From an uncultured Verrucomicrobiota bacterium (lineage in GTDB: Bacteria; Verrucomicrobiota; Verrucomicrobiia; Chthoniobacterales; SZAS-18): 32,526 bases of DNA. The notes beneath the pieces were generated by a model. It had not been told where the DNA came from and ran no database searches. It was given only the letters and a program-made list of their open reading frames with translations. The stretch covers positions 1 through 32,526 of the forward strand of contig CALMOL010000114.1 of the NCBI GenBank assembly GCA_937871685.1, read 5' to 3'. Position numbers and translations under genes: made by a program. Of the stretch, positions 12,325-27,645 are shown in pieces (positions within the stretch are counted from its first letter, which is position 1; each line of letters opens with the position of its first letter).

Positions 12325-13764
12325 TCACAACGCCGAGGAAGCGGCAGGCGGACCGACTGGTCCCGAGGCGGCGGTCGAGGCCATGGGCGGGGAAGTTTTA
12401 GGATTGCTCGCGGTCGGCAAGGCGTAGGGTGAGGGCGGCGAGAAGTTTCGCAGCATGCCGATGTCGCGCGTGATGAGGCGAGAGCCGCGGTAGTTGAGCA
12501 GGTAAGCCCAAGCCCACTCGGCGAGCACGCCGAGCTTGTTGCGGAAGCCGACTAGATACAAAACGTGCACGAAGAGCCAAGCCATCCACGCCATGAAGCC
12601 GGAAAGATGCAGCCGCTTGAAGATGGTCGGGAACACCTCGGCAATCGCTCGCGCGCGGCCGATGGTGGCCATCGAGCCCTTGTCGAAATAATGGAAGGGC
12701 GTCGCTTGTCCGCCGGCCACGAGATGCCGGATGTTGGCGGCGGCGCACCGGCCCTGTTGCATCGCCACCGGGGAAAGGCCGGGCAGCGGCGTTCCGCCCT
12801 GGTGGGAGAAGTTGGCGGCGTCGCCCAGAACGAAGACGTTGGGATGGCCGGGAATGGAGAGGTCAGGGTTCACGATGGCGCGGCCGGCCTTGTCGAGCGG
12901 CGCGTCGGAGCCAAGCGTGCGCAGGAGCGGCGAGGCAGCGTTGCCGGCGGCCCATATCACGGTGCGCGACTCGATCCTTTCGCCGTTGGCGATCACCCCA
13001 AACTCGTCAACCCCCGTCACGCGCGTGCCAGTGCGAACTTCGACGCCGATTTCCTCCAACTGCCGGCGGGCGCTCTCGGACAAATCCTCGGCGAAGGCGC
13101 CGAGCACCCGCGGACTGCCCTCCAGGATGATCACTCGCGCCTTGGCGGGATCGAAGTGCCGGAAGTCTTCCGTCATGGAGTAGGTGCCGATCTCCTTGAT
13201 CGCGCCGGCCATCTCGACGCCGGTTGGCCCGCCGCCCACGATGACGAATGTCAGCGCGGCGCGGCGCTCGGCCTCATCGGTGGCCTTCTCGGCCAGCTCG
13301 AAGGCGGCGAGCATCCGCTGGCGGATTTCCAGCGCGTCCTCGACGGCCTTGAGCCCAGGGGCGAATTTCTCCCATTCGTCGTGCCCGAAATAAGAGTGCC
13401 GCGCACCGACGGCGAGAATGAGGTAGTCGTAGTCGAAGACAATGTCGTCGGTGAGGATGCTCTGGTTCTTGAGGTCGATCTGCCGCGCTTCGGCAAGAAA
13501 CACCTCGGTGTTTGATTGCTCGCGCACCACGCTCCGCAGCGGGGCAGCGATCTGCGCGGGAGCGAGCGCGCAGGTGGCGACCTGATAAAGCAGGGGCTGG
13601 AAGGTGTGGTGATTGCGGCGATCGAGGAGAGTCACGCGCACCGGGGCGTCGCCCAAAGCCTTGGCGGCCTCCAGGCCCGCGAAGCCACCCCCGATGATCA
13701 CCACGCGGGGCGGCAGCCCGGGAAGGTCGGCGGCGAGATCGTTCGGTCGGGTCAGGGTTTCCAT
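12325..13764 (-). CDS. ndh: Type II NADH dehydrogenase / NAD(P)-FAD-dependent oxidoreductase
   Basis: RVVIIGGGFAGLEAAKALGDAPVRVTLLDRRNHHTFQPLLYQVATCALAPAQIAAPLRSV; second Rossmann FVIVGGGPTGVEMAGAI; FVLGDAAN; C-terminal amphipathic/hydrophobic segment FMAWMAWLFVHVLYLVGFRNKL. Start ATG 13764. Confidence 0.92.
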   Translation of the reverse strand: METLTRPNDLAADLPGLPPRVVIIGGGFAGLEAAKALGDAPVRVTLLDRRNHHTFQPLLYQVATCALAPAQIAAPLRSVVREQSNTEVFLAEARQIDLKNQSILTDDIVFDYDYLILAVGARHSYFGHDEWEKFAPGLKAVEDALEIRQRMLAAFELAEKATDEAERRAALTFVIVGGGPTGVEMAGAIKEIGTYSMTEDFRHFDPAKARVIILEGSPRVLGAFAEDLSESARRQLEEIGVEVRTGTRVTGVDEFGVIANGERIESRTVIWAAGNAASPLLRTLGSDAPLDKAGRAIVNPDLSIPGHPNVFVLGDAANFSHQGGTPLPGLSPVAMQQGRCAAANIRHLVAGGQATPFHYFDKGSMATIGRARAIAEVFPTIFKRLHLSGFMAWMAWLFVHVLYLVGFRNKLGVLAEWAWAYLLNYRGSRLITRDIGMLRNFSPPSPYALPTASNPKTSPPMASTAASGPVGPPAASSAL

Positions 13765-13853
13765 GTCGGCGGGGAAGGGTGCCCCGAATCGGATCGTGCC
13801 GCCAGCTTGGCCGCGTGTCGCCAGGCTCCCGCGAGGGCATGATGCCGCGTTGC

Positions 13854-13871
13854 TTGTGAAACATTTCACAA
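13854..13871. promoter_or_regulatory. Candidate Rex (redox-sensing repressor) operator
   Basis: TTGTGAAA-CA-TTTCACAA: 8-bp perfect arms around a 2-bp centre, between divergent ndh and nuoD; matches the described Rex operator pattern TTGTGAA(N4)TTCACAA. Confidence 0.8.
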
Positions 13872-13956
13872 ATGGGAGTTGCGCCGCGAAGGGCGCAGAG
13901 GGACCATCTTCCCTCTCGCCGGGCGCCTTTCACCCATGCGCCGGGCGCTCCGGCTC

Positions 13957-15201
13957 ATGGCCACGCAGACCCTCGAAATCGGCGACACCCAAGCCCGCGC
14001 GCAGGCCGGCATGTCCGACCTCGTGGAGGACGCGGTGGGCGAAAAGCTCATCCTGAACATGGGGCCTTCGCACCCCGCCACGCACGGCGTGCTGCGGATC
14101 GTGCTGGAACTCGACGGCGAGGTCATCACCAAGGCCATCCCGGACGTCGGCTACCTGCACCGCGGCGACGAGAAGATCGCCGAGAACATGCAGTATAACC
14201 AGTTCATCCCCTACACGGACCGGCTGGACTACCTCGCGCCCCTCTCGAACAACGTGGCCTACGCCCTGGCCGTCGAGAAGCTGATGGGCTGGGAATTGCC
14301 GCCGCGCGGCAAGGCGATCCGGGTGATCTGCTGCGAGCTGGCGCGCATCTCAGCGCACCTGCTGGGACTCGGGGCCTTCGCCATGGACACCGGGGCGATG
14401 TCGGTCTTCCTCTACACGTTCACGGAGCGCGAGAAGATCTACAACCTGATCGAGACGCTCACCGGCGCGCGCTTCACGACGAGCTACACGCGCATCGGCG
14501 GCCAGATCCGCGACCTGCCCGAGGGCTACGGCGCGCAGGTGCTGAAGTTCGTGGACGGCTTCCTCCCCGTGATGGACGAGCTGGACAAGCTGCTCCAGCG
14601 CAACCCCATCTTCATGAACCGCACGCGCGACCTCGGCGTGATTTCGAAGGAGCAGGCCATCACCTACGGCCTGACCGGCCCGAACCTGCGCGGCTCCGGC
14701 GTGGAATACGACGTGCGGAAGGCCAACCCGTATCTCGACTACGAGCGCTACGACTTCGACATCCCCGCCGGCACGGTGGGCGACTGCTACGACCGCTACA
14801 TGACGCGCGGCCTGGAGATGCGCGAGAGCGCCAAGATCCTGCGCCAGGCCGTGGAGAAGCTGCCCGACGGCCCGATCAACGTCGAGGACGGCAAGAATTT
14901 CCTCCCGCCCAAGGAGCGCGTGATGAAGAAGATGGAGGAATTGATCCACCAGTTCATGATCGTCACCGAGGGGATCAAGGCGCCGCCCGGCGAGGTGTAT
15001 TTCGGCGCGGAGAACCCGAAGGGCGAGCTGGGCTTCTACATCCGCTCGCGCGGCGGTGGCGTGCCGCACCGGCTGAAGATCCGCGCCCCAAGCTTCGTGA
15101 ACCTTTCCATTCTGCCCGAGCTGCTGCCCGGCCATCTCATGAGCGACGTGGTCTCGATCCTCGGCTCGCTCGACTTCGTGATGGGCGAGTGCGACCGCTG
15201 A
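13957..15201 (+). CDS. nuoD: NADH-quinone oxidoreductase subunit D (49 kDa)
   Basis: LILNMGPSHPATHGVLRIVLELDGEVITKAIPDVGYLHRGDEKIAENMQYNQFIPYTDRLDYL; C-terminal DVVSILGSLDFVMGECDR. ATG 13957 or 13936 possible. Confidence 0.96.
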   Translation: MATQTLEIGDTQARAQAGMSDLVEDAVGEKLILNMGPSHPATHGVLRIVLELDGEVITKAIPDVGYLHRGDEKIAENMQYNQFIPYTDRLDYLAPLSNNVAYALAVEKLMGWELPPRGKAIRVICCELARISAHLLGLGAFAMDTGAMSVFLYTFTEREKIYNLIETLTGARFTTSYTRIGGQIRDLPEGYGAQVLKFVDGFLPVMDELDKLLQRNPIFMNRTRDLGVISKEQAITYGLTGPNLRGSGVEYDVRKANPYLDYERYDFDIPAGTVGDCYDRYMTRGLEMRESAKILRQAVEKLPDGPINVEDGKNFLPPKERVMKKMEELIHQFMIVTEGIKAPPGEVYFGAENPKGELGFYIRSRGGGVPHRLKIRAPSFVNLSILPELLPGHLMSDVVSILGSLDFVMGECDR

Positions 15202-15301: not shown

Positions 15302-15835
15302 ATGAGCGCCGCCGCCGAAGAGATTCCCACGCTGCCGTCCGTTCCTGCCGAGCTGGAAGCGCGCATCGACGAGGCGATCACGCACTACCCGCCCGATTTC
15401 AAGCGCTCGGCGACTTTGCCGCTGCTGCACTTGCTGCAGGAGCACTTCGGCTTCCTCGGGGCGGGCACGGAGGAATGGGTGGCCCACAAGCTGGGCCTGG
15501 AGCCGGTGAACGTGTATGAGGTCATCACGTTCTACCCGATGTTTCGACGGGCGCCGGCGGGGCGGCACCACATCCGCGTGTGCCGCACGCTCTCGTGCGC
15601 GCTGGGTGGCTCCTACGAGCTGATGCGACAGCTTTGCGAGCTGGCGAAGATCGACCGCTCGCACGCCACGCACCACGCGCCGGTTTCCAACGCGGCCGAC
15701 GGCAAGTTCTCCATCGAGTTCGTCGAGTGCCTCGCCTCCTGCGGCACCGCCCCCGTGTGCATGGTGGACGACGATTTCTACGAGAACGTGGCGACCAAGG
15801 AGGCCGCCGCGCAAATTCTCCAGCGCTACGAGTAG
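15302..15835 (+). CDS. nuoE: NADH-quinone oxidoreductase subunit E (24 kDa, 2Fe-2S)
   Basis: EEWVAHKLGLEPVNVYEVITFYPMFRRAPAGRHHIRVCRTLSCALGGSYELM...FVECLASCGTAPVCMVDDDFYENV. Confidence 0.95.
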   Translation: MSAAAEEIPTLPSVPAELEARIDEAITHYPPDFKRSATLPLLHLLQEHFGFLGAGTEEWVAHKLGLEPVNVYEVITFYPMFRRAPAGRHHIRVCRTLSCALGGSYELMRQLCELAKIDRSHATHHAPVSNAADGKFSIEFVECLASCGTAPVCMVDDDFYENVATKEAAAQILQRYE

Positions 15836-15853
15836 TTCCGACCCGCCACGCTC

Positions 15854-17275
15854 ATGGTTTCCCTTGTCAAACACCCCCACCCCCGCGAGCGCCGGCTCGT
15901 CTTCAAAAACGTGGACCGGCCCGGCTGGTCGCCGGACATCGACACGTATCTCCAGGACGGCGGCTACGACGACCTGAAAAAGGGCTTCGGCATGAAGCCG
16001 CAGGAGATCGTCGGCGAGGTGAAGACCTCGCAGTTGCGCGGCCGCGGCGGCGCCGGATTCTCCTGCGGGATGAAGTGGGGCTTCATCAAGCCGGACGAGA
16101 AGAAGCCGGTCTATCTCATCTGCAATGCGGACGAGTCCGAGCCGGGCACCTTCAAGGATCGCTACATCATTCACCAGGACCCGCACCAGTTGCTGGAGGG
16201 GATGATCCTCTCCTGCTACGCGGTCAACGCCCGGCTGGCCTACATCTACATCCGCGGCGAGTTCCCCGAGGGCGCGCGCATCCTCGAGCGCGCCATCCAG
16301 GAGGCGCACGCCCGCGGCTTCCTCGGGAAGAACATTCTGGGCTCCGGCTTCGACCTGGAAATCTTCGTCCACCGCGGCGCCGGCGCCTACATCTGCGGCG
16401 AGGAGACGGGCCTGATCGAGTCGCTGGAAGGCAAGCGCGCCTACCCGCGCATCAAGCCGCCGTATTTTCCCGCGGTGCTTGGCCTCTACCAGTGCCCCAC
16501 CATCGTCAACAACGTGGAGACGCTGTGCAACGTGAAGCACATCGTGCGCCTGGGCGGCGCCGAGTTTGCCAAGATCGGACGGCCGAACAACACCGGCACC
16601 CGCATCCTCTGCGTGAGCGGCGACGTGCAGAAGCCCGGCTACTTCGAGCTGGAGTGCGGCGCGGTGACGATGGGCGAGCTGCTCAATGACCTTTGCGGCG
16701 GCCCGAAGCCCGGCCGGAAGTTCAAGGCCGTGATCCCCGGTGGCTCGTCCGCCAAGGTGCTGCGCGCGGACGACACCTACAAGATCAAGGTCAAGCAGCC
16801 CGACGGCTCCATGGCCGATCAGGAACTGAAGTTCGACGACATCGTCCTCGACTTCGACTCGCTCGCCGCCGTCGGCTCCATGGCCGGCTCGGGCGGCGTG
16901 ATCGTGATGGACGACTCGCGCGACATGGTGTGGGCGCTCAACAACATCAACGAGTTCTACGCGCACGAGAGCTGCGGCCAATGCACGCCCTGCCGCGAAG
17001 GCTCGCTCTGGATGAAAAAGATCACGGATCGTCTCGCCGGCGGCTACGGCGTGGCGGCCGACCCGCGCACGCTCAAGAGCGTGGCCGACAACATCGCCGG
17101 CCGGACGATCTGCGCCTTTGGCGAGGCTTGCGCGTGGCCGGTGCAGTCCTTCCTCCAAAAGTTCCCCGAGGACTTCGCCGGGGCCGCCGCCAAGAACGAA
17201 CTGCCGCGCGGCGCCCGCACCGCGCTCGAAGCCCTCAACCCCGCCCTCGCCGCCGCCGCGGCCGAGCGGCATTGA
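15854..17275 (+). CDS. nuoF: NADH-quinone oxidoreductase subunit F (51 kDa, FMN/NADH)
   Basis: LRGRGGAGFSCGMKWGFI; CNADESEPGTFKDRYI; GAGAYICGEETGLIESLEGKRAYPRIKPPYFP; ESCGQCTPCREG. Confidence 0.97.
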   Translation: MVSLVKHPHPRERRLVFKNVDRPGWSPDIDTYLQDGGYDDLKKGFGMKPQEIVGEVKTSQLRGRGGAGFSCGMKWGFIKPDEKKPVYLICNADESEPGTFKDRYIIHQDPHQLLEGMILSCYAVNARLAYIYIRGEFPEGARILERAIQEAHARGFLGKNILGSGFDLEIFVHRGAGAYICGEETGLIESLEGKRAYPRIKPPYFPAVLGLYQCPTIVNNVETLCNVKHIVRLGGAEFAKIGRPNNTGTRILCVSGDVQKPGYFELECGAVTMGELLNDLCGGPKPGRKFKAVIPGGSSAKVLRADDTYKIKVKQPDGSMADQELKFDDIVLDFDSLAAVGSMAGSGGVIVMDDSRDMVWALNNINEFYAHESCGQCTPCREGSLWMKKITDRLAGGYGVAADPRTLKSVADNIAGRTICAFGEACAWPVQSFLQKFPEDFAGAAAKNELPRGARTALEALNPALAAAAAERH

Positions 17276-17297
17276 GAAACCGCGCTATCCTGCCGCT

Positions 17298-17522
17298 ATG
17301 ACCGCCCAGCTTGCTGAACTCAAGAAGCTCTCCGTCGCCGAACGCCTGCTGCTCGTCGAAGACCTCTGGGATAGCATCGCAGAGGATGGCTTCATGCCCG
17401 AGATTACTCCGGAGCTGGCGGCCGAGCTGGACCGCCGCTCGGCGGAGCTAGACGCCAACCCGGCCAACGTCTTCACGCTCGACGAGGTGATTGAACGGGC
17501 GCGCCGCGAATTTCATGGCTAA
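17298..17522 (+). CDS. Addiction module antitoxin-like protein (TIGR02574-type)
   Basis: MTAQLAELKKLSVAERLLLVEDLWDSIAEDGFMPEITPELAAELDRRSAELDANPANVFTLDEVIERARREFHG (74 aa); typical LS..ERL.L.E.LWDSI...L..RL...P pattern. Confidence 0.88.
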   Translation: MTAQLAELKKLSVAERLLLVEDLWDSIAEDGFMPEITPELAAELDRRSAELDANPANVFTLDEVIERARREFHG

Positions 17523-17820
17523 TGCCCTTGTCATTTCCGCCGCGGCCGCCGTCGATCTCGTATCGGCGATTAATTGGTATGAAGGGCAAGAACCCGGTCT
17601 CGGCGAGGCGTTCATCCGTGCTTTCCGCGCCTGTGCCGACGGCATCGTCCGCCACCCGGACCTGCACCCGGTCGTCCGGGGCAAGATCCGGCGGGCTCTG
17701 GTCCGCCGCTTCCCTTACCAAGTGTTCTACCGCGCCGAGGAATCGCGCGTGGTGGTGCTGACCGTCTTCCACTCTTCCCTGAATCCTACCCGTCTCCAGC
17801 GCCGCCTGCGTGGGAGTTGA
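17515..17820 (+). CDS. RelE/ParE-family toxin-like protein
   Basis: MANALVISAAAAVDLVSAINWYEGQEPGLGEAFIRAFRACADGIVRHPDLHPVVRGKIRRALVRRFPYQVFYRAEESRVVVLTVFHSSLNPTRLQRRL; start overlaps the antitoxin stop (ATGGCTAA). Confidence 0.88.
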   Translation: MANALVISAAAAVDLVSAINWYEGQEPGLGEAFIRAFRACADGIVRHPDLHPVVRGKIRRALVRRFPYQVFYRAEESRVVVLTVFHSSLNPTRLQRRLRGS

Positions 17821-17832
17821 CCGTCTTCTCGT

Positions 17833-19518
17833 ATGTCCGCAGATGTTGCCGCTCCCGCTGCTGTCCAGCCCGTCGTCGCCCCGCCGGGCATGGTGAACGT
17901 GCAGGTGGATGGCCGCTGGATCCAGGTTCCGAAGGGCACCCGCGCCATCGAGGCGTGCAAGCAGAACGGCTCCTTCGTCCCGCACTATTGCTATCACCCG
18001 AAGCTTTCCGCGCCGGGCAATTGCCGGATGTGCCTGATCGAGTTCGGCAGCCCGAAGATGGGACCGGACCGCAAGCCGATCTACGGCCCCGACGGCTATC
18101 CGGAGATCTCCTGGATTCCCCGCCCGCAGATCTGCTGCTCGACCGACGTGGCCGAGGGCGCGGCCTACCGCACGCAATCGCCCCTCGTGGACGAGTGCCG
18201 GCGCGGCGTGATGGAGTTCCTGCTCATCAATCACCCGCTCGACTGCACGATCTGCGACCAGGCGGGCGAGTGCCGCCTCCAGGAGTTCTCTATCGACTAC
18301 GGCAACGCCGGCTCGCGCTTCATCGAGGAGAAGGTCAAGAAGCCCAAGCGCGTCGAGCTCGGGCCGCGCGTCACGCTGGACGACGAGCGCTGCATCATGT
18401 GCTCGCGCTGCATCCGCTTCTCGAAGGAGATCGCGCACGACGACGTGCTGGGCTTCACCGAGCGCGGATCGCACACCACGCTCTCGTGCTTCCCGGGCAA
18501 GAAGCTGGAGAACAACTACTCGCTCAACACGGTGGACATCTGCCCGGTGGGCGCGCTCACCTCGACGGACTTCCGCTTCAAGATGCGGGTGTGGTTCCTC
18601 AAGGAAACCAAGTCCATCTGCACGAGCTGCGGCACCGGCTGCAACACCGAGATCGGCTCCCGCGAGGGCAAGGTCTATCGCCAGACGCCGCGCGACAACG
18701 AGGCCGTCAACCAGTGCTGGATGTGCGACTACGGCCGCCTGAACTTCCACTTCCTCCACGACGAGCGCCGGATGACATCCGCGCTCGTCCGCGACGCCGA
18801 GGGCACCCCGCAGCCGCAGCCGCTTGCCAAGGCCATCGCCGCCGCGGCGAATCTTCTGCGCCAGTTCAAGCCATCCGAGATCGCCGTGATTGCCTCCGCG
18901 CGGCAGACCAACGAGGAGCTGTTCCTCACCGCCAAGCTGATCCGTCTCCTCGGCGCGCCGCTCTTCGACATCGTGGGCAGGCACCAGCACGCCGATGGCA
19001 TCCTCGTGTCGGACGACGGCAACCCGAACACGCGCGGCGCGCAGCTGATGAAGGTGTCCGCCGAACATCCCGGCTCCTTCGTCCCGATCATCGTCGGCAA
19101 GGTGAACGACGGCGCGATCAAGGCTCTCGTTTGCCTTTCCGAGGACGCCGTCGAGTTCGGCGCGAAGCCCGCCGCGCTGGCGAAGCTCGGCGCGCTCGTC
19201 ACGGTCAACCTTCAGTCGAACGCGACCACCGCGGCCGCCCACGTTGCGCTGCCGGGCGCGGGCTTCGCCGAGAAGCGCGGCTCGATGATCAACGTCAAGG
19301 GTCGCCTCCAGCGCCTCAACCGTGCCGTCCAACCGCCCGCCGGTGCAGCCGACGATTGGGAAATCCTGCGCGACCTCCTCGCCGCCCTCGGCGGTGGCAA
19401 CGGCTTGTATTCCATCGAGGACGTCTTCAAGCGCATGGCCGCCGAGGTGCCCGCGTTTGCCGGCCTGAGCCTGTCAAAAATCGGCGACCTCGGAGTGCCC
19501 CTGGAGGGGAAGATTTAA
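17833..19518 (+). CDS. nuoG: NADH-quinone oxidoreductase subunit G (75 kDa)
   Basis: N-terminal 2Fe-2S CKQNGSFVPHYCYHPKLSAPGNCRMC; HPLDCTICDQAGECRLQ; CIMCSRCIRFSKE; CTSCGTGC...CWMC; 561 aa. Confidence 0.95.
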   Translation: MSADVAAPAAVQPVVAPPGMVNVQVDGRWIQVPKGTRAIEACKQNGSFVPHYCYHPKLSAPGNCRMCLIEFGSPKMGPDRKPIYGPDGYPEISWIPRPQICCSTDVAEGAAYRTQSPLVDECRRGVMEFLLINHPLDCTICDQAGECRLQEFSIDYGNAGSRFIEEKVKKPKRVELGPRVTLDDERCIMCSRCIRFSKEIAHDDVLGFTERGSHTTLSCFPGKKLENNYSLNTVDICPVGALTSTDFRFKMRVWFLKETKSICTSCGTGCNTEIGSREGKVYRQTPRDNEAVNQCWMCDYGRLNFHFLHDERRMTSALVRDAEGTPQPQPLAKAIAAAANLLRQFKPSEIAVIASARQTNEELFLTAKLIRLLGAPLFDIVGRHQHADGILVSDDGNPNTRGAQLMKVSAEHPGSFVPIIVGKVNDGAIKALVCLSEDAVEFGAKPAALAKLGALVTVNLQSNATTAAAHVALPGAGFAEKRGSMINVKGRLQRLNRAVQPPAGAADDWEILRDLLAALGGGNGLYSIEDVFKRMAAEVPAFAGLSLSKIGDLGVPLEGKI

Positions 19519-19680
19519 GCCGCAAGCTCCAAGCCTCAAGGAAACTCGAAAAAGAAGAAAGCCCGAAAACCCGAAGCGAAATCAATCAAGCGAAGCTCAC
19601 GCTTTCTTTGCTCGAACGCCATCCCCCCGCCTTTTCTTCCTTCCTCCCTTCCGCCTTGCTTGAAGCCTGAAGCTTGATGC
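19519..19680. repeat. Intergenic inverted repeat, family B copy 1 (nuoG-nuoH gap)
   Basis: Left GCCGCAAGCTCCAAGCCTCAAGG; right CCTTGCTTGAAGCCTGAAGCTTGATGC (imperfect reverse complement); pyrimidine-rich stretch before the right arm. Confidence 0.75.
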
Positions 19681-19705
19681 TTTCGGATTTTCTTCCTGTC
19701 CTCCC

Positions 19706-20887
19706 GTGCCCGACTTCATCCAGCCCTGGCTCTTTCTCCTGCCGATCATCATCAAGGTGGTCGTCGTCTTCGCGGTCGTGATGGGCCTCGTGGCGTATGC
19801 GTCGCTCGCGGAGCGAAAAGTCTCGGCCTTCATCCAGGACCGCGTCGGCCCGAACCGCGTCGGCCTCCCGCTCACGCTGCTCGGCTTCAAGAAGGATCTC
19901 GCCATCGGCGGCCTTTTCCAGCCGCTGGCCGACGGGTTGAAGTTCCTGCTCAAGGAGGACCTCACGCCGGGGCACGTGAAGCCGTTCTACTACTGGCTCG
20001 CGCCCGCGCTGACCGTCGTGCCGGCGTTGCTCACCATCGCGGCGGTGCCGTTTGGGTCCACGCTCTTCGGCTACAAGATGGTCGTGGCCGACATCAACGT
20101 GGGCTTCCTGTTCGTGTTCGCCATCGCCTCGGTCGGCGTCTATGGAATCGTGATGGCCGGCTGGTCGTCGAACTCGAAGTATTCCTTCCTCGGCGGCGTG
20201 CGCTCCTCGGCGCAGATGATCTCCTACGAGCTCTCGATGGGCCTCTCGCTCGTGCCGCTCCTGCTCGTGATGGGCGAGTTGAACCTCGGCAAGATCGTCG
20301 AATACCAGGCGTGGCACGGATGGACCCTCCTGCCCTTCACCGACCTGCGCATCCAGTGGTCCCCGCACTGGGAAATCTCCGGCCTCAACTGGCGCGAGAT
20401 CCTGCTGTGGATCCCGATGCTGATCTCGTTCGTGATCTTCACCACGGCCGTGTTCGCCGAGACGAACCGCGCGCCCTTCGACCTGCCGGAGTCCGAGACC
20501 GAGCTGGTGGGCGGCTACCACACGGAATACTCCTCGATGAAGTTCGCCTGCTTCTTCATGGGCGAATACGCCGCCATGATCACCGGCTGCGCGCTCATCA
20601 CCACGCTGTTTCTCGGCGGCTGGCACCTCCCGATCCCGATTATTCACGACGGCGCGTTCTCCCTCCAGACGCGCACGGGCGACCACGGCACCCTCTGGGG
20701 CATCCTGAACATCCTCACCTTCCTCGGGAAGGTGATCTTCCTGGTGATCTTCTTCATGTTCGTGCGCTGGACGCTGCCGCGCTTTCGCTACGACCAGCTC
20801 ATGCGCCTGGGCTGGGTGTGGTTCTTCGAGATCGCCCTCGCCAACATCGTCCTCGTCGCGGTTCTCCTCGCCTTTTTCCCGAAGTAA
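19706..20887 (+). CDS. nuoH: NADH-quinone oxidoreductase subunit H
   Basis: YASLAERKVSAFIQDRVGPNRVG; FAETNRAPFDLPESETELVGGYHTEYSSMKFACFFMGEY; GTG start. Confidence 0.96.
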   Translation: MPDFIQPWLFLLPIIIKVVVVFAVVMGLVAYASLAERKVSAFIQDRVGPNRVGLPLTLLGFKKDLAIGGLFQPLADGLKFLLKEDLTPGHVKPFYYWLAPALTVVPALLTIAAVPFGSTLFGYKMVVADINVGFLFVFAIASVGVYGIVMAGWSSNSKYSFLGGVRSSAQMISYELSMGLSLVPLLLVMGELNLGKIVEYQAWHGWTLLPFTDLRIQWSPHWEISGLNWREILLWIPMLISFVIFTTAVFAETNRAPFDLPESETELVGGYHTEYSSMKFACFFMGEYAAMITGCALITTLFLGGWHLPIPIIHDGAFSLQTRTGDHGTLWGILNILTFLGKVIFLVIFFMFVRWTLPRFRYDQLMRLGWVWFFEIALANIVLVAVLLAFFPK

Positions 20888-20891
20888 CCCC

Positions 20892-21422
20892 ATGGCCATC
20901 ACCGTTCCCCGCCCCGACCTCTCGGCCGCCGAGAAGACCTATCTTCCGGCCCTCTGGGAAGGATTGAAGGTCACCGCCCGCCACTTCAAGAACAACCTCT
21001 TCGGCAAGGGCAAGGTCACGATGGAGTATCCCGAGGAGCGCTGGGACTCGCACCTGCCGGAATACTACCGCGGCGTCCCCGCCCTCGTCACCGACGAGCA
21101 CGGCAAGGACCGCTGCGTGTCGTGCCAGCTCTGCGAGTTCATCTGCCCGCCGCGCGCGATCACGATCACGCCGGGCGAGATCCCGCCGGGCGACACCTTC
21201 GCCAAGACCGAGAAGCGCCCGCAGGAGTTCAAGATCGACATGATCCGCTGCATCTACTGCGGGATGTGCGAGGAAGTCTGCCCCGAGCAAGCCATCTTCC
21301 TGCAGAAGGACTACCTCGTGGTCGGCACCCGCCGCGAGGACATGGTCCACGACAAGCAGAAGCTCTACGAGATCGGCGGCCTCAAGACCGGCCTCGTCAA
21401 CAAGTGGGACGAGAAGAAGTAA
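20892..21422 (+). CDS. nuoI: NADH-quinone oxidoreductase subunit I (2x 4Fe-4S)
   Basis: CVSCQLCEFICPPRAI and CIYCGMCEEVCPEQAI ferredoxin motifs. Confidence 0.96.
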   Translation: MAITVPRPDLSAAEKTYLPALWEGLKVTARHFKNNLFGKGKVTMEYPEERWDSHLPEYYRGVPALVTDEHGKDRCVSCQLCEFICPPRAITITPGEIPPGDTFAKTEKRPQEFKIDMIRCIYCGMCEEVCPEQAIFLQKDYLVVGTRREDMVHDKQKLYEIGGLKTGLVNKWDEKK

Positions 21423-21430
21423 TCCCGAAT

Positions 21431-21563
21431 TTCACCACGGAGGACACAGAGATCACCGAGGCCCGACCAGAAAACTTTTGCCGATGATCTCCGCGCCGGT
21501 CCCCACCCCACCTTTCTCCTTCCTCATCTGCCCTCTGTGATCTCTGTGTCCTCTGTGGTTTAA
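21431..21563. repeat. Intergenic inverted repeat, family A copy 2 (nuoI-nuoJ gap)
   Basis: Left ACCACGGAGGACACAGAGATCACCGAGG against reverse complement of the right arm ACCACAGAGGACACAGAGATCACAGAGG: 26/28 identical. Confidence 0.9.
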
Positions 21564-21573
21564 TTTTCGGCGA

Positions 21574-22074
21574 ATGTCCCCCGCGCTTTTCTGGTTCTTC
21601 TCCCTCATGATGATCGCCTTCGCGATCCTCGTGGTGGTGAAGCGCAATCCGGTCGCCTCGGCGCTCTCGCTCGTGGTCTCGTTCATCGGGCTGGCGGCGC
21701 TCTTCGTCTCGCTGGACGCCTACTTCATCGGCACGATCCAGATCCTCGTGTATGCCGGCGCGGTGATGGTGCTCTTCCTGTTCATCATCATGCTGCTCGA
21801 CCTCAAGGCGGAGGAAAAGCGCGTCGTGACCGCCGCGCCCCTGATCGGCGGGATCGTGGTGGGCTTCACCTTCCTCACGCTGCTCATCCGCGTGCTCGCC
21901 GGGAACGCGAACGGAAAGCTGCCGATGCCCGCCCTTCCCGGACCGGTGGACGACGTGAAGCGCGTCGGCGAGCTGCTCTTTTCCCAATACAACCTGCCGC
22001 TCCAGATCATCGGCACGCTGCTGCTCGTCGCCACGGTGGGCGTGGTGGTCCTGTCCAAGCGCGAGTTGAAATAA
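21574..22074 (+). CDS. nuoJ: NADH-quinone oxidoreductase subunit J
   Basis: Hydrophobic; VVVKRNPVASALSLVVSFIGLAALFVSLDAYFIGTIQILVYAGAVMVLFLFIIMLLDL. Confidence 0.94.
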   Translation: MSPALFWFFSLMMIAFAILVVVKRNPVASALSLVVSFIGLAALFVSLDAYFIGTIQILVYAGAVMVLFLFIIMLLDLKAEEKRVVTAAPLIGGIVVGFTFLTLLIRVLAGNANGKLPMPALPGPVDDVKRVGELLFSQYNLPLQIIGTLLLVATVGVVVLSKRELK

Positions 22075-22096
22075 GCCTTCCCTCCCCTGCCCTCGG

Positions 22097-22423
22097 ATGT
22101 CCGCGATTACCCTGAACGATTACCTGCTGGTCTCCGGCATCCTCTTCGCCGTGGGCCTGTTCGGCGTGCTCGTGCGCCGCAACATCATCGTGATCTACAT
22201 GTGCCTGGAGATCATGCTGAACGCGGCCAACCTCGCGCTCGTCGCCTTCTCGCGCTTCCACGTCGCGCCGGACGGGATGCCCGACTACCACGGCCAGGCG
22301 CTGGTCTTCTTCATCATCACCGTGGCCGCTGCCGAGGTGGCCGTGGGCCTGGCGATCATCGTGGCGCTCTACCGCACCCGCCAGACCACGCAGATCGACG
22401 AGATCAACAAGCTCCAGTATTGA
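22097..22423 (+). CDS. nuoK: NADH-quinone oxidoreductase subunit K
   Basis: YLLVSGILFAVGLFGVLVRRNIIVIYMCLEIMLNAANLALVAF; VAAAEVAVGLAIIVALYR. Confidence 0.95.
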   Translation: MSAITLNDYLLVSGILFAVGLFGVLVRRNIIVIYMCLEIMLNAANLALVAFSRFHVAPDGMPDYHGQALVFFIITVAAAEVAVGLAIIVALYRTRQTTQIDEINKLQY

Positions 22424-22429
22424 CCGAAG

Positions 22430-22570
22430 GCTTCAAGCACCAAGCACCAAGCTTCAAGGAATTGCGCTCCGCGCCCGAGTCCAACCCGCCCCACCCCGCC
22501 ACTTTTCGCAAACTTTCGGCCTTTCCTCTCTTTCTGCCTTCCTTGAAGCCTGAAGCTTGAGGCTCTCAGC
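22430..22570. repeat. Intergenic inverted repeat, family B copy 2 (nuoK-nuoL gap)
   Basis: Left GCTTCAAGCACCAAGCACCAAGCTTCAAGGA; right CCTTCCTTGAAGCCTGAAGCTTGAGGCTCTCAGC. Confidence 0.85.
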
Positions 22571-22582
22571 TCTTTCCTTTCG

Positions 22583-24439
<1,857 letters not shown>

Positions 24440-24454
24440 CAACCCTTCCGCGAA

Positions 24455-26008
24455 ATGGCGCTTTATCTTCTCATCCTCCTGCCGCTGCTCGGCGCGGTGC
24501 TCGCGCTGCTGGGCGTCGCGCCGCGGAAAGTGTCGCTCCTCGCGTCGCTGGCCACGCTCGGCCTCGGGCTGGTCCTCCTCCTCGGCTACAACCCTCGCCT
24601 CGCCGACCCGCTCTCGGCCCCGTCGGCGGCGCAATTCCAGTATGTCGCCGACCTGCCCGTGGTGCCCTCCATCGGCCTCGGCCTCAAGGTCGGCGTGGAC
24701 GGCCTCGGCCTGATGATGGTGGTGCTCGCGGGCCTGGTCTCGCTCTGCGCCGTGCAGGTGGCTCCGGCCGAGCGCGAGGAGGACGGCGCGTATTTCGCCT
24801 GCCTCCTCTTCATCACCGCGGGCTGCGTCGGCGCGTTCGTCTCGCTCGACCTCTTCTTCTTCTACGCCTTCCACGAGCTGGCGTTGATCCCGACCTTTTT
24901 GCTCATCGGCATCTGGGGCCACGGCGAGCGCGTCGCGGCGGCGTGGAAGATCACCATCTACCTGGCGCTCGGCTCCTTCATCCTGCTGATCGGACTGCTC
25001 TGGCTCTACCTGTCGTTCCCGGCCGAGGTGCGCACCTTCGACCTGCTCAAGCTCTACCAGTTCGCCGAGCGCGGGGCGCTCGAAGGCGCGCCGCAAAAGG
25101 AAATCTTCCTCGTCCTCCTTGCTGGCTTCGGCGTGCTGATCTCGCTCTTCCCGTTCCACACCTGGGCGCCGCAGGGCTACGCCGCCGCGCCCACCCCGGC
25201 CGCGATGCTCCACGCCGGCGTGCTCAAAAAGTTCGGTCTCTTCGGCCTCCTGCGCGTGGCGTATCCCCTCCTCCCCGAGGGCGCGCGGGAAGCCACGGGC
25301 ATCCTCGTCGTCCTGCTCATCGGGAACCTCCTGTGGGTCGGCCTCGCCGCGATCGCCCAGCGCTCGCTCGACTCGCTGCTCGGCTACTCCAGCGTGATGC
25401 ACATGGGCTACGCGTTCCTCGGCCTGGCGAGCCTCTCGCCCATCGGCCAGAGCGGCACCGCCCTGCTCCTGTTCGCGCACGGCCTCTCGGTCGCGGCGCT
25501 CTTCGCCATCATGGGCGAGGTGCGCGACCGCACCGGCACCACGCGGCTCGACGAGCTCGGCGGCCTCGCCCAGCGGATGCCCTTTCTCTCGGTGTGCTTC
25601 GGGTTCGCGATGTTCGCCTCCATCGGCCTGCCGGGCTTCGCCAATTTCGTTTCCGAGCTGCTCGTGTTCTTCGGCGCCTTCGGCGTCGATGGCGTCCATG
25701 TCGGCAAGCGCATGGCTGGCGACGGCCTCTGGATCATCTTCTCGCCGCTCCAGGTCGGCGTCATCGCCGGCCTGTGGGGCGTGGTCATCTCCGCCGTTTA
25801 CATGCTGCGCGCCTACCGCCGCATTTTCTGGGGCGTGCTGCCCGATGCCCTGCGCGAGCAAACCGATCCCCCCCTCGCCGCGCGCTGGCCCTACGCACTG
25901 CTGATCGTCGGGCTGATGGCGATCGGGTTCTGGCCGCGCCTGCTCCTCGACGTGATCAAGCCGGGCCTCGGCGTGCAACCCACCCCGGCTGCCCAGGCGG
26001 GCAGATGA
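24455..26008 (+). CDS. nuoM: NADH-quinone oxidoreductase subunit M
   Basis: LFFFYAFHELALIPTFLLIGIWG; FPFHTWAPQGYAAAPTPAAMLHAGVLKKFGLFGLLR; SVMHMGYAFLGL. Confidence 0.95.
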   Translation: MALYLLILLPLLGAVLALLGVAPRKVSLLASLATLGLGLVLLLGYNPRLADPLSAPSAAQFQYVADLPVVPSIGLGLKVGVDGLGLMMVVLAGLVSLCAVQVAPAEREEDGAYFACLLFITAGCVGAFVSLDLFFFYAFHELALIPTFLLIGIWGHGERVAAAWKITIYLALGSFILLIGLLWLYLSFPAEVRTFDLLKLYQFAERGALEGAPQKEIFLVLLAGFGVLISLFPFHTWAPQGYAAAPTPAAMLHAGVLKKFGLFGLLRVAYPLLPEGAREATGILVVLLIGNLLWVGLAAIAQRSLDSLLGYSSVMHMGYAFLGLASLSPIGQSGTALLLFAHGLSVAALFAIMGEVRDRTGTTRLDELGGLAQRMPFLSVCFGFAMFASIGLPGFANFVSELLVFFGAFGVDGVHVGKRMAGDGLWIIFSPLQVGVIAGLWGVVISAVYMLRAYRRIFWGVLPDALREQTDPPLAARWPYALLIVGLMAIGFWPRLLLDVIKPGLGVQPTPAAQAGR

Positions 26009-26013
26009 AAAGA

Positions 26014-26150
26014 TCCAAGCTTCAAGCCTCAAGTTTCAAGGAAGGCCCGAAACCCCGTAAAATCTCAAGGCGACCCGTCCCGCGCTTTTCTTCCTTGGCC
26101 TCGCTTCTCCCTTTCCGTCCTTCCTTGAAGCTTGAGGCTTGAAGCTTGGA
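26014..26150. repeat. Intergenic inverted repeat, family B copy 3 (nuoM-nuoN gap)
   Basis: Left TCCAAGCTTCAAGCCTCAAGTTTCAAGGAAGG (26014-26045) against right CCTTCCTTGAAGCTTGAGGCTTGAAGCTTGGA (26119-26150): 31/32 positions complementary, the odd one a potential U-G wobble. Confidence 0.95.
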
Positions 26151-26160
26151 CCCTTCCTGC

Positions 26161-27645
26161 ATGAACCCTCTCTATTTAGAGACCGCCGTCATCCTCCTTG
26201 GCCTCGGCCTGATCCTCGCCGAGGCCTTCGCCGAGACGGTCGAGAAGCGCACCTTCGCGTGGGTCGCCATCGCCGGCCTCGCGGCGGTCCTCGTCCTCAC
26301 GTTCTTCGTGGACCCCGGCACGGCGGCGCCCGGCGACAATTGGCGGCGGTTCTACGCCACCGACGGCGCGGCGATGTTCTTCAAGCGCTTCGCCCTCGTC
26401 ACCACGATCCTCGTGCTGCTGATGGCGCTCGACTACCTGCCCGTCGTGCAGCGCTACATCGCCGGAGCGCGGCCGGGCGCGGGTTTGGGTGAGTTCCTGA
26501 CGCTCCCCGTGTTCACCTGCGCCGGCCTGATGTGGATGGCCTCGGCGAAGGACCTCACGATGATCTTCGTGTCGCTGGAGCTGGTGACCGTTTCCTTCTA
26601 CGTGCTCGTCGCCTACATGCGGCGCAATTCCGCGTCCTTGGAGGCCGGGGTGAAGTATCTGATTCTCGGCGCTCTTTCCACCGGCTTCCTCGTGTATGGC
26701 CTGGTGTGGACCTACGGCCTCTCCGGCCACACGGCGCTCGACCAGATCGGCCCCGCGCTCGCCGCCCTGCCGCCCGAGAGCGGCGGCGCGGTGTTCTTCG
26801 CCTTCGTGCTGGTGCTCGTCGGCCTCGGCTTCAAGATCGCCGCCGCGCCCTTCCAGCTTTGGGTGCCAGACGTGTATCAGGGCGCGCCCACGCCGATCAC
26901 CGCCTTCCTTTCCGTCGGCTCGAAGGCCGCCGGCTTCATCGTGCTGATGCGCGTCCTCGACGTGTTCCTGAGCGTCCCCTCCGTCGTCCCCAAGGCCGGC
27001 CTCGTGCTCGTCGGCGTCACCGTGGCCACGCTCGTTTACGGCAATCTGGCCGCCCTCCCGCAGACCAATCTCAAGCGCCTCCTGGCCTACTCCTCCATCG
27101 CCCACGCTGGCTACCTGCTCGTCGCCGTGACGAGCGTGCTGCCCTCCGCGGGCGGCACCCCGCCCCCGATCCCGATGGGCGCCACCGTCGCCTTCTACCT
27201 CGGCGGCTACCTGCTCATGACCATCCTCGCCTTCGCGGTGATGGTGGCCGCCGGCAACCACCTCCCCGGCGACGAGATCATCCACTTCAACGGCTTGGCC
27301 AAGCGCTCCCCCGCCCTCGCCTTCGGCCTGCTGGTGGGAATGGCCTCGCTGGCCGGCGTGCCCTTCACCGTGGGGTTCTTCGGCAAGTTCTTCGTCTTCG
27401 CCGGCGCCGTGGCGCGCGGCCAATGGCTGCTCGTGGCCGTCGGCACCGTGGCCGTGGCGTGCGGGTTCTACTATTACCTCAAGGTGGTGCGCGCGATGTA
27501 TTTCCAGCCGCCCGTGCCCGGCCAGGAAACGGCCATCCCCCTCTCCGGCCCCACCCGCGCCGTGGTCGTCGCGCTGGCCGCCCTGATCCTCTTCCTCGGC
27601 GTGTGGCCCCAGCCGGCGCTGAATTTGTTCCCCGGCGCGCGCTAA
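26161..27645 (+). CDS. nuoN: NADH-quinone oxidoreductase subunit N
   Basis: MNPLYLETAVILLGLGLILAEAF; DLTMIFVSLELVTVSFYVLVAYMRRNSASLEAGVKYLILGALSTGFLVYGL; PFQLWVPDVYQGAPTPITAFLSVGSKAAGF. ATG 26161 preferred to TTG 26146. Confidence 0.95.
   Translation: MNPLYLETAVILLGLGLILAEAFAETVEKRTFAWVAIAGLAAVLVLTFFVDPGTAAPGDNWRRFYATDGAAMFFKRFALVTTILVLLMALDYLPVVQRYIAGARPGAGLGEFLTLPVFTCAGLMWMASAKDLTMIFVSLELVTVSFYVLVAYMRRNSASLEAGVKYLILGALSTGFLVYGLVWTYGLSGHTALDQIGPALAALPPESGGAVFFAFVLVLVGLGFKIAAAPFQLWVPDVYQGAPTPITAFLSVGSKAAGFIVLMRVLDVFLSVPSVVPKAGLVLVGVTVATLVYGNLAALPQTNLKRLLAYSSIAHAGYLLVAVTSVLPSAGGTPPPIPMGATVAFYLGGYLLMTILAFAVMVAAGNHLPGDEIIHFNGLAKRSPALAFGLLVGMASLAGVPFTVGFFGKFFVFAGAVARGQWLLVAVGTVAVACGFYYYLKVVRAMYFQPPVPGQETAIPLSGPTRAVVVALAALILFLGVWPQPALNLFPGAR

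Follow-up and report, generated by a model that had tools for sequence, protein, structure and literature searches.

Results

The ndh-nuoD intergenic region

The window, i.e. the whole stretch of 32,526 nucleotides analysed here, corresponds to contig C114 of a 4.97-Mb draft assembly (534 contigs, 89.92% complete) of an uncultured Verrucomicrobiota bacterium. The features relevant to this study are the following:

12325..13764, minus strand: ndh, coding for an NADH dehydrogenase of the NDH-2 type; predicted divergent target (Pfam Pyr_redox_2, 157.7 bits; NDH2_C, 31.6 bits)
13854..13871, no strand assigned: predicted Rex operator TTGTGAAACATTTCACAA (sequence match; kept at nuoD in relatives)
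13879..13884, plus strand: putative nuoD -35 element TTGCGC, beginning 8 bp past the operator (operator-anchored comparison)
13902..13907, plus strand: putative nuoD -10 element GACCAT, 17-bp spacer (operator-anchored comparison)
13957..15201, plus strand: nuoD, which opens the complex I cluster; predicted divergent target (Pfam Complex1_49kDa, 372.7 bits)
15302..27645, plus strand: nuoE, nuoF, nuoG, nuoH, nuoI, nuoJ, nuoK, nuoL, nuoM and nuoN, 3' of nuoD (Pfam matches); presumed to be co-transcribed with nuoD

The palindrome TTGTGAAACATTTCACAA, made up of two perfect arms of 8 bp each, is located about midway between the two divergent genes. The ATG of ndh (minus strand, 13764) is 89 bp away and that of nuoD (13957) 85 bp away; nuoD may instead start at the in-frame ATG 13936. 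Sequence, arms, coordinates and both spacings (89 and 85 bp) reproduce what a preceding sequence-only reading of this DNA had reported. The 18-bp palindrome perfectly matches the Rex operator pattern TTGTGAA-N4-TTCACAA, as well as the published Rex operator TTGTGAANNNNTTCACAA (PMC5355995; PMC2883068). It is the sole match to this pattern in the window even if three mismatches are tolerated, while 0.22 matches are expected at this stringency in the shuffled window.

A generic sigma-70 promoter scan of positions 13600-14100 found no consensus promoter. Promoter elements were therefore inferred from 57 non-identical nuoD regions brought into register at the operator. A TTG begins at exactly +8 from the operator in 45 of these 57 regions and NANNNT is present at +31 in 30, while the combination TTG-N16-18-NANNNT occurs in 41. 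The GACCAT hexamer of the window is a weak -10 element, yet it is in register with those of the relatives. On the basis of this alignment, nuoD transcription would start near position 13914, and the operator would occupy about -60 to -43, directly next to the -35 element. Such a position just upstream of the putative -35 element is less classical for a repressor and counts against the interpretation we favour below. In the atpB regions, a TTG is found at +8 from the operator in 14 of 23 cases.

Rex is encoded on a separate contig

The genome harbours a single rex gene, positioned on a contig other than that of the window (G000:C508:46-666), in agreement with the sequence-only reading, which had proposed a search for a Rex homologue. 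The contig starts about 45 bp upstream of the gene. The encoded full-length protein of 207 amino acids was recognised by profile search of the genome with PF06971 (59 bits) and scores 227.5 bits against the NCBIfam equivalog NF003992, whose cut-off is 226. It aligns end to end with the solved Rex structures PDB 2vt2, 3keo and 3ikv (4e-37 to 2e-34). An N-terminal winged-helix domain carrying the recognition helix QLRKDLS is followed by a Rossmann domain with the nucleotide motif GAGNLG (GxGNLG in the family), and the length is as expected for a Rex protein (about 210 residues). In G215 and G110, two distant rex-bearing genomes from outside the class, the palindrome is found 50-64 bp ahead of the rex gene, an independent link between motif and Rex.

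Sites in the remainder of the genome

Only three perfect TTGTGA-N6-TCACAA sites are present in the 4.97-Mb genome, compared with zero matches to the reversed control pattern. All three precede energy-metabolism genes, namely ndh/nuoD, atpB (F1Fo subunit a; site about 130 bp upstream of the gene) and a polyprenyl-PP synthase gene (ispB). A site with one mismatch (L005 1501-1518; G000:C72:10867-10884) lies between an RpoD/RpoS-like sigma factor gene and a ComM-like gene; we left it unassigned, as no such site was seen at promoters of RpoD/RpoS-like or ComM-like genes in the relatives' loci examined. Sites with three mismatches (L006, L007, L008 and L009) are located within or next to repeat-rich or unrelated genes and were discarded as they look like chance matches. 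We also observed repetitive intergenic stretches in whose translations motifs recur in several frames (L003 2515-3018, L005 1-294, L007 1310-1830 and L009 1052-1544); possibly, these are interspersed repeats of this genome.

The polyprenyl-PP synthase operator differs from that of nuoD in its geometry. In 13 of 17 ispB regions the operator is preceded, at a distance of 4-5 bp, by a [TC]ANNNT hexamer, which places the transcription start inside the operator. A GTG within the operator is in frame with the IspB protein in 15 of the 17 regions, a count which partly reflects extrapolated BLAST starts. This GTG is probably the start codon, and the arrangement suggests a leaderless ispB start inside the operator. 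In the present genome (G000:C395) the operator occupies L003 1501-1518 and the gene 1503-2237, the operator encoding M-K-x-F-T. The reading frame of this gene appears shifted part-way through, at about L003 2050-2240, owing either to an assembly error or to decay.

Conservation and predicted targets in relatives

The closest named NuoD relatives are Verrucomicrobiota records with one exception (L214, labelled Betaproteobacteria). Of 80 named NuoD loci of the phylum, over half retain the site at nuoD, so that the conservation upstream of nuoD/ndh for which the sequence-only reading had suggested looking does exist. While the intergenic DNA flanking the operator has diverged, the operator itself is strictly kept at orthologous positions. 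With a matrix built from 54 sites located elsewhere than at nuoD and ndh, matches upstream of nuoD score 24.9-33 bits and all remaining nuoD upstream regions about 6 bits or less; since its training sites had been collected by pattern, the matrix is rigid and scores degenerate sites too low. Some rex-bearing relatives are devoid of a good nuoD site (G008, G009, G024, G033 and G056). The complete ndh-site-nuoD arrangement occurs in 11 genomes including this one, which belong to families f1, f4, f6 and f9. No neighbouring ndh was detected at the nuoD site of family f5 or of many other Verrucomicrobiota.

According to tblastn and ORF inspection, the genes 3' of the palindrome in relatives comprise nuoD, atpB, ispB, mqnE, actA, cydA and nuoB, and sdhC is preceded by a less regular site. 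The name actA was given from the multiheme cytochrome appearance of the product, for which NCBIfam yields only a sub-threshold match to QrcA. As mqnE proper was not found in the present assembly (only a homologue at 39%, interrupted by an internal stop) and the retrieved locus of its actA homologue contains no site, both genes rest on the relatives as targets. The sequence-only reading had anticipated further sites at cyd, adh and ldh; cydA was indeed encountered in relatives, while adh and ldh are not among the sites examined, whose predicted targets are respiratory rather than fermentative. In several relatives (L065, L075, L078, L022, L023, L025 and L091) one Rex-type site is common to mqnE and an ECF sigma factor gene that diverges from it.

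In relatives from the class whose complex I genes are dispersed (L259-L291), the nuoB, nuoD, nuoE, nuoF, nuoG, nuoH and nuoI loci each possess a site of their own, nuoG, nuoH and nuoI having been identified by eye. That these orphan genes each carry an operator suggests selection for joint control after operon dispersal. In distant phylum members (loci L279, L281 and L292), NuoE/NuoF-like genes (27-41% identity) are found near Rex-type sites; perhaps these encode subunits of a hydrogenase or formate dehydrogenase.

Co-occurrence of sites with rex and with CRP/FNR-type proteins

Among 57 genomes, i.e. that of the window and its relatives, 24 possess both rex and Rex-like sites, none possesses rex only, three possess sites only and 30 possess neither (Fisher p=4e-13, shared ancestry ignored). 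Site presence hence tracks rex across genomes. The three genomes with sites only (G002, G005 and G006) are MAGs of the same family, 89-92% complete and split into 120-640 contigs, in which rex was not detected, a direct protein search included. The same contrast recurs inside two families: G035 and G056, the only sampled rex genomes of families f6 and f13, carry three and two TTGTGA-N6-TCACAA sites, respectively. Sites in the rex-less genomes G011, G015 and G045 have a centre other than A/T, and no recognised target adjoins them. In a phylum-wide sample, the eight genomes of the same class with a strong rex match harbour 6-11 sites each, as opposed to 0 or 1 in the other sampled genomes of that class. 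Most rex-bearing genomes outside the class are without a perfect site, which implies that the regulon there is small or that a different motif is used.

The consensus of E. coli CRP is TGTGA-N6-TCACA and thus shares core and spacing with the palindrome. Binding of a CRP/FNR-family protein would therefore equally account for the core at 13854-13871, which on its own does not discriminate between the two families. Sites are also present in nine of the 11 relatives whose HTH_Crp_2 match is strong and full-length, although this positive association is weak (p=0.017) and far below that of rex. The present genome, however, yields only weak partial HTH_Crp_2 matches (<=28 bits, about 35 residues), and a full-length match is absent in 18 of the 27 site-bearing genomes, this one included. 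G003, G006, G010, G035, G042 and G056 are even devoid of any HTH_Crp_2 match, yet all of them carry sites; conversely, G013 and G020 possess a strong CRP but no sites. In addition, the sites extend beyond the CRP core to TTGTGAAA-NN-TTTCACAA, the A/T beside the core being nearly invariant as in Rex operators. Based on the distribution of HTH_Crp_2 matches relative to that of the sites, which follow rex far better, we rejected CRP/FNR as the binding protein and consider this assignment very unlikely. Even less credence, indeed next to none, is due to a chance palindrome or a structural hairpin without a regulator, in favour of which nothing but the short length of the motif can be adduced. Against it stand the three perfect genomic sites versus zero for the reversed control, the strict orthologous conservation amid diverged flanks and the co-occurrence with rex. 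Besides, the position between divergent genes means that the palindrome is not a terminator for ndh or nuoD.

Discussion

Taken together, the palindrome is in all likelihood an operator of Rex, a repressor which senses NAD(H) and would co-repress ndh and nuoD at low NADH/NAD+. The sequence-only reading had already regarded the site as Rex-like, a view now strongly backed by the presence of rex in the genome and by the retention of the site in relatives. Of the outcomes named there as refuting, those accessible to sequence analysis, namely a genome devoid of rex and a palindrome not kept in relatives, did not occur. On the other side stand the three site-bearing MAGs in which rex was not detected, the rex-bearing relatives with no good nuoD site, the position of the operator beside a weak putative promoter and the actA locus devoid of a site. 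While site, gene, conservation and predicted regulon emerge from sequence comparison, the proposed binding by Rex, direction of control and response to NADH are ascribed by analogy with the Rex family. At a low NADH/NAD+ ratio a Rex dimer would occupy the intergenic site and keep both divergent promoters, that of ndh and that of nuoD, repressed. A rise in NADH would release Rex, permitting NDH-2 and complex I to be made. ATP synthase and the quinone-tail enzyme would be induced alongside them, such that NADH could be re-oxidised.

Our interpretation departs from the sequence-only reading in one respect, as the latter had envisaged a switch between non-pumping and pumping NADH oxidation, for which Rex would have to act in opposite directions on the two NADH dehydrogenases, repressing one and activating the other. 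Opposite signs are conceivable given that the operator is common to both genes and located just upstream of the putative nuoD -35 element; activation of nuoD from this position would, in fact, be the only way to rescue the switch. One operator and one repressor common to divergent promoters, however, imply that ndh and nuo are under the same sign of control, and in S. avermitilis nuo and ndh2 are alike under repression by Rex (PMC5355995). Moreover, atpB shows the same operator-promoter spacing, as does nuoD in genomes without adjacent ndh, so that the ndh/nuoD pair is no special case. We thus deem a switch improbable and retain co-repression of both genes by Rex.

Operator and regulator are of an already known kind, as Rex control of nuo, ndh, atp and cyd has precedent. 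The interesting part is the breadth of the predicted regulon, which spans electron input, quinone synthesis and ATP synthesis, and which assigns a regulator and a signal (NADH/NAD+) to respiration in a little-studied Gram-negative phylum. With some reserve, we favour the more general view that in respiring Verrucomicrobiota Rex may govern nearly the whole of oxidative phosphorylation (NDH-2, complex I, alternative complex III, bd oxidase and ATP synthase) along with menaquinone synthesis (mqnE and polyprenyl-PP synthase). The operator would have been re-established before each nuo gene upon break-up of the operon and would double as the ispB start region, its GTG likely serving as a leaderless start codon. 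Our literature search, itself incomplete, retrieved no study of Rex in Verrucomicrobia, nor did it reveal a shared ndh/nuoD operator, quinone-synthesis and alternative complex III targets or operator-bearing dispersed nuo genes.

Comparison with known Rex systems shows both agreement and divergence. The S. aureus Rex operator TTGTGAAW4TTCACAA (PMC2883068) is a near-identical palindrome, while the regulon of that organism mainly comprises fermentation and nitrate respiration (cited in PMC5355995), no such targets being among the sites examined here. In B. subtilis, Rex controls yjlC-ndh (cited in PMC5355995), so that ndh is a Rex target there, although its operator is not shared with complex I. 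Closest in content is the regulon of S. avermitilis, where Rex directly represses nuoA1-N1, ndh2, atpIBEFHAGDC and cydABCD and where NADH lowers Rex binding (PMC5355995). The operator consensus TTGTGAANNNNTTCACAA is the same, but in S. avermitilis nuo and ndh2 are controlled separately through degenerate sites, and the regulon extends to heme genes (PMC5355995). In contrast, a single perfect operator is predicted to serve ndh and nuoD together in the present genome, and polyprenyl-PP synthase, mqnE and alternative complex III join the putative targets in this lineage.
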